Source: a bacterium (lineage in GTDB: Bacteria; Patescibacteriota; Patescibacteriia; Patescibacteriales; Patescibacteriaceae). Taken from it: a stretch of DNA of 33,315 nucleotides. The notes below the pieces were generated by a model. That model saw nothing but the letters and a program-made list of their open reading frames with translations. It searched no databases and had not been told where the DNA came from. A program made the translations under genes and the position numbers. The DNA is taken from contig JAKAEX010000002.1 of assembly GCA_021819805.1 (NCBI GenBank), positions 1 to 33,315 of the forward strand, read 5' to 3'. Numbering within the stretch: the stretch's first letter is position 1; every line of letters begins with the position of its first letter. Positions 2,286-25,123 of the stretch are shown piece after piece.

Positions 2286-3431
2286 ATGATTATTGGTGTT
2301 GATGTTCGTGTATTATTGGGCGCTCAGTACAGCGGGATTGGTGAATACACGTTTAATTTGCTTACAGCCTTGATTAAAGAGGACAAGTCTAATGACTACG
2401 TCCTTTTTTATAATAGCGCCAAAGATTTAAGCGGACGCCTGCCGAAGTTTGATCAAGCTAATGTGAGCTATGTCGGCCGACGTTTGCCCAATAAATTGAT
2501 TAATTACGGTCTTTTTAAAACTTTGCATTGGCCGCGAGTTGACCAGCTGGTAAACAAACACTTTGATGTTTTTTGGATGCCCCACCTTAATTTTATGGCC
2601 TGGCCGATGGCTAAAAATTTTTTAACAGTTCATGATTTGTCGTTTCTCCGTTACCGAGAATTTTTTTCAGCGCATAATAATTTTTGGCACAATCAGCTTA
2701 AGGCGCCAAAACTGATTCAAGGAGCGGATAAAATAATCGCCATTTCCGCTAACACTAAACAGGATATTGTTGAATTAACCGGCGTGTCGCCGGACAAGGT
2801 GGCGGTTGTCTATTCCGGCGTGGCTGAGAGCTACAGCCGCTTAGAGCCGGCTGATCCGCGCTTAGTGGCGGTTAAAAATAAATATCAACTGCCGGCTAAA
2901 TTTATTTTATACTTAGGCACGATTGAACCCAGAAAAAATTTAGTTGGTTTGATTGAAGCCTATAATTATTTACGACAAACTTATCCAGAACTGGCGGAAT
3001 TTAAATTGGTTTTAGCCGGCGGCGATGGCTGGAAATTTAAAGCGGTTTATCAAGCGGCTAAAGTTTCACCCTTTAGCCAAGATATTAAATTTTTGGGTTA
3101 TGTGGAGGCGGAGGATAAGTGCCCGCTTTATAATTTAGCCAGCGTCTTTGCTTTCCCGTCTTTTTACGAGGGCTTTGGTTTTCCACCCCTGGAAGCCATG
3201 GCCTCAGGCACGCCGGTCGTGGCCAGCTTTGTTTCTTCTATTCCCGAAGTTCTCGGCACAGCCGGTTTATTGATTGACCCTTATGATTTGAGAGAAATCG
3301 GCGAAGCCTTAGCTCAAGTTTTGTTAAACCAAAACTTAGCAGATAGTTTAAGTCAAAGGGGTTTAGTTCGCGCTCAAGAGTTTACTTGGCAAAAAACAGC
3401 CAAGCAATATTTGGATATTTTTAACAATTAA
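2286..3431 (+). CDS. Glycosyltransferase family 4 (GT-B)
   Basis: GVDVRVLLGAQYSGIGEYTFNLL; YLGTIEPRKNLVGLIEAY; FPSFYEGFGFPPLEAMASGTPVVAS. Confidence 0.92.
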   Translation: MIIGVDVRVLLGAQYSGIGEYTFNLLTALIKEDKSNDYVLFYNSAKDLSGRLPKFDQANVSYVGRRLPNKLINYGLFKTLHWPRVDQLVNKHFDVFWMPHLNFMAWPMAKNFLTVHDLSFLRYREFFSAHNNFWHNQLKAPKLIQGADKIIAISANTKQDIVELTGVSPDKVAVVYSGVAESYSRLEPADPRLVAVKNKYQLPAKFILYLGTIEPRKNLVGLIEAYNYLRQTYPELAEFKLVLAGGDGWKFKAVYQAAKVSPFSQDIKFLGYVEAEDKCPLYNLASVFAFPSFYEGFGFPPLEAMASGTPVVASFVSSIPEVLGTAGLLIDPYDLREIGEALAQVLLNQNLADSLSQRGLVRAQEFTWQKTAKQYLDIFNN

Positions 3432-23108: not shown

Positions 23109-23135
23109 TTAGCAGTCAAAACCAGGGACTGCTAA
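23109..23135 (+). promoter_or_regulatory. CIRCE-like operator (variant)
   Basis: TTAGCAGTC-aaaaccagg-GACTGCTAA: perfect 9-9-9 inverted repeat; canonical CIRCE is TTAGCACTC-N9-GAGTGCTAA. Confidence 0.85.

Positions 23136-23458: not shown

Positions 23459-25123
<1,665 letters not shown>

Follow-up and report, generated by a model that had tools for sequence, protein, structure and literature searches.

The window, that is, the whole stretch of DNA analysed (33,315 nt), is contig C23 of a 687-kb MAG (83 contigs, 77% complete) that is Candidatus Falkowbacteria-like. It carries groES and groEL, and the closest relatives of this groES in named records were mostly Candidatus Falkowbacteria or unclassified Patescibacteria. 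Ahead of groES we found a promoter with a 17-nt spacer between TTGACA and TAATAT, and an inverted repeat that begins 9 nt past TAATAT and ends 32 nt upstream of groES (Table 1). As the repeat follows the -10 box and precedes groES, it lies over the predicted transcription start.

Table 1. Features of the groESL locus and the clpB operator of the same MAG.
Feature	Contig	Position	Strand	Basis or remark
groESL promoter -35 hexamer TTGACA	C23	23071..23076	+	sequence
groESL promoter -10 hexamer TAATAT	C23	23094..23099	+	sequence
Left CIRCE half-site TTAGCAGTC, position 7 = G	C23	23109..23117	+	sequence
Operator spacer AAAACCAGG, 9 nt	C23	23118..23126	+	sequence
Right CIRCE half-site GACTGCTAA (TTAGCAGTC on the - strand)	C23	23127..23135	+	sequence
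groES, 96 aa	C23	23168..23458	+	PF00166, E=2.4e-31
groEL, one in-frame TAG at 24374-24376	C23	23468..25123	+	PF00118 on both parts
clpB CIRCE operator	C76 (L013)	3208-3234		adjoins clpB -10 box, also in the family

The repeat has the features of CIRCE, the operator of HrcA: a 9-bp inverted repeat, a 9-nt spacer and the TTAGCA core. When compared with the exact consensus TTAGCACTC-N9-GAGTGCTAA, 16 of the 18 half-site positions agree, and both departures fall on position 7, where each half-site has G and not C. The likeness extends to the placement at promoter and start, the groESL target and the presence of hrcA and a cognate HrcA in the genome. A pattern search with TTAGCASTC-N9-GASTGCTAA returned this site as the single match in the whole window, while 100 dinucleotide-preserving shuffles gave 0 matches, none being expected by chance. 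The first-pass annotation had described the operator sequence with its 9-9-9 geometry (23109-23135), the promoter 9 nt ahead of it with groES next, and the symmetric change at position 7; all of these were exactly reproduced.

We did not treat the inexact match as excluding CIRCE, since this clade varies at position 7 and the HrcA motif of Waddlia chondrophila (TAGCA-N15-TGCTAA, obtained by ChIP-seq and confirmed by gel shift; PMC4989314) leaves it open. The two share the TAGCA/TGCTA core at equal distance with positions 7-9 not fixed, although the Waddlia motif comes from ChIP-seq in a chlamydial relative and the groESL operator is known from sequence alone. The CIRCE sites of delta-proteobacteria are alike in geometry and in their groESL and hrcA-grpE-dnaK targets, but they invariably have C at position 7 and depart from the consensus at 1 and 3 (PMC545781, Table 8), whereas the groESL operator departs at 7.

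HrcA is encoded in the MAG, on contig C16, upstream of grpE and dnaK. The protein has the DNA-binding and C-terminal Pfam domains, above the Pfam cut-off, and matches T. maritima HrcA (1STZ, the only solved HrcA structure that we found) over its DNA-binding part (residues 15-104, E=1.1e-18). HrcA proteins of the order (e.g. L002:1462-2139:-) have ~226-248 aa (median 229), compared with 338 residues in the 1STZ chain; the PF01628 alignment starts only at around position 70-110, and that with 1STZ is confined to the DNA-binding part. From these alignments, HrcA of this clade seems to lack a segment that would follow the DNA-binding domain and may be the inserted dimerising domain.

A second HrcA copy was found on contig C39. 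The hrcA-grpE-dnaK loci of C39 (L001/L014) and C16 (L002/L015) are syntenic with 70-79% nucleotide identity within one MAG, and the similarity spans nearly all of C39's 4.8 kb. Since relatives have one HrcA per genome as a rule, C39 is probably a contig that a related organism contributed to the bin. We therefore rejected the C39 HrcA as a special partner of the groESL operator; its recognition helix and wing are in any case the same as those of the C16 protein, with one I/V difference ahead of the helix. With two HrcA genes in the MAG, either might encode the operator's partner.

The operator is conserved among relatives. A pattern search found TTAGCANTC-N9-GANTGCTAA in 108 of the 111 genomes of the order, while the reversed control pattern gave 0 matches in the same 111; HrcA was likewise found in 108. 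Operators of the same geometry lie upstream of groES, hrcA and clpB both in this genome and across the order. When loci were picked by groES and not by the motif, 36 of 39 had an operator ahead of groES, so the motif is conserved at this position in relatives. Together with the HrcA gene, these findings, which speak against both grounds for refutation named in the first-pass annotation, bear out the part of the first-pass interpretation that assigned the site as a CIRCE-like HrcA operator of groESL.

Conservation within the 36 groES-picked operators was 0.96-1.00 at positions 1-6 and 8, 0.81 at position 9 and 0.65 at position 7. Across the 13 genomes of the present genome's family, 37 operators at three target genes had C at position 7 in 33 half-sites, G in 33, A in 8 and T in none, the other positions being nearly fixed. 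Most of the family's groES operators likewise follow a TTGACA that stands about 17 nt ahead of a TAnnnT box. In the family's hrcA operators (L152-L163, L015) the 9-nt spacer contains a TTGACA-like -35 box; position 7 of their left half was C in 13/13, and that of the right half was G in 7, A in 3 and C in 3.

With no mismatch allowed in the core, a loose pattern search of the MAG left exactly three sites, at groES, hrcA and clpB. The operator of hrcA-grpE-dnaK is TTAGCACTC..GATTGCTAA and that of clpB, read along the gene, is TTAGCAATC..GAGTGCTAA; clpB thus appears to belong to the HrcA regulon. Within one genome, position 7 (left/right half-site) is G/G at groES, C/A at hrcA and A/C at clpB, and therefore one HrcA type meets C, G and A.

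These states bear directly on the second part of the earlier interpretation, namely that a change shared by both halves implies a repressor that co-evolved to an altered specificity. HrcA or a paralogue would then favour G at position 7, and having it on both sides would restore matching in the two half-sites. Such a preference would fit the like change of both halves, the prevalence of G/G among the family's groES operators (5/11, the commonest state) and the two HrcA genes in the bin. However, the changed base is not common to all operators, as hrcA and clpB each keep one C and one A half.

Symmetry at position 7 was also no more frequent than expected from random half-site pairing. Among the 37 operators of the family, 12 were symmetric against 14.8 expected (P=0.88), and among its groES operators alone 6 against 5.1 (P=0.36); these P values are rough, as the operators share ancestry, which would inflate symmetry and not hide it. 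G/G itself was seen in 7 of the 37 (7.2 expected). With no symmetric excess, the half-sites vary independently at position 7. Pooled across the class, G/G operators numbered 29 against 16.9 from one pooled expectation. This excess largely shrinks within the G-rich family f42 (12 against 11.1), within the order subset (6 against 4.4) and within the present family, so lineage differences in G frequency largely account for it; the remaining families, pooled together, gave 11 against ~6.7.

The recognition helix pointed the same way. That of the C16 HrcA (LDISSATVRNEMAELE) recurs unchanged in G010, a relative with two operators, each of them C/C, and also in several others. By this helix comparison with a C/C-only genome, no changes in putative DNA-reading residues were found in the C16 protein, and both HrcA copies of the bin share the helix. 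Both groups of HrcA have the wing PHTSAGR(I/V)PTE in common. Genomes of f42, moreover, often hold C/C and G/G operators together. An altered-specificity repressor is thus very improbable here, and the co-evolution claim was not upheld.

In f42 itself, HrcA (L194, L196-L204, L206-L220) mostly has RNWF or RNYF in the helix in place of RNEM. G at position 7 is frequent in this family (0.43), and C/C operators remain, often in the same genome as G/G. In f42, helix and position 7 may be linked, but such a link is not needed for the present genome.

Being downstream of the -10 box, the groESL operator is probably transcribed, and the leader folds to a 9-bp stem (-12.4 kcal/mol, z -2.1). The inverted repeat might accordingly be kept as an RNA hairpin acting on mRNA stability, the paired change being base-pair compensation. 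Against this, groES operators of relatives are often mismatched at position 7 (C/G, A/G), and hrcA operators of the family enclose the -35 box, so that transcription from that promoter gives no hairpin of them. Base-pair compensation was rejected on account of the common mismatched pairs and the enclosed -35 box, and we regard the hairpin explanation as extremely improbable.

Position 7 might instead tune affinity, with G operators binding HrcA more weakly or more strongly than C operators and induction thresholds differing between groESL, clpB and hrcA. In the family, G half-sites amount to 14/22 for groES, 12/26 for clpB and 7/26 for hrcA, whose left half is always C, as would be expected of tuning. 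The state of the same gene differs between close relatives, however, and the hrcA bias could stem from the adjacent -35 box, so that we consider tuning unlikely. As a speculative suggestion, HrcA of the Falkowbacteria family may have lost discrimination between C, G and A (though not T) at position 7, the mix of operators then setting the repression strengths of groESL, clpB and hrcA; in a contrast lineage (f4), position 7 is almost only C.

Judging from the operators and HrcA proteins compared here, the groESL site is very probably an ordinary HrcA operator (CIRCE) in which position 7 drifts separately in each half-site, its symmetric G/G being a coincidence of two tolerated changes. Each HrcA subunit would read mainly TTAGCA (positions 1-6) and T8, with C9 read less strictly, and position 7 would be weakly read in this lineage, leaving C, G and A to drift in each half-site on its own. 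C is the consensus in most other bacteria described, and a lineage difference in how HrcA reads this position is possible. A literature search that covered mostly freely available papers turned up neither the G/G variant nor a Patescibacteria HrcA.

By analogy with known HrcA biology, a dimer of HrcA bound to this site, immediately past the -10 box and on the predicted start, would keep RNA polymerase from transcribing groESL until heat stress inactivated the repressor. The placement is like that in Campylobacter, where HrcA overlies the transcription start and is believed to act by blocking RNA polymerase (PMC7464140). The operators indicate that the HrcA regulon (groESL, hrcA-grpE-dnaK, clpB) has been kept in small-genome Patescibacteria. 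A search limited to the strict CIRCE consensus would overlook Patescibacteria operators, in this genome all three. That both halves of a palindromic operator have changed alike is not in itself evidence of repressor co-evolution, and the base rate of one-sided changes should be counted first.

Finally, groEL has 74-81% identity to most relatives across its length. Its in-frame TAG replaces a D of the closest aligned relative, at an E/D position, and the halves on either side both align with groEL of relatives, to full length; the TAG may reflect a true nonsense change, or else a mistake in the reads or the assembly. A 60-codon stretch at ~24728-24907 has a GC3 of 0.27 (0.38-0.60 elsewhere in the gene) and is less like the closest relative, possibly as a recombination patch or a chimeric assembly.
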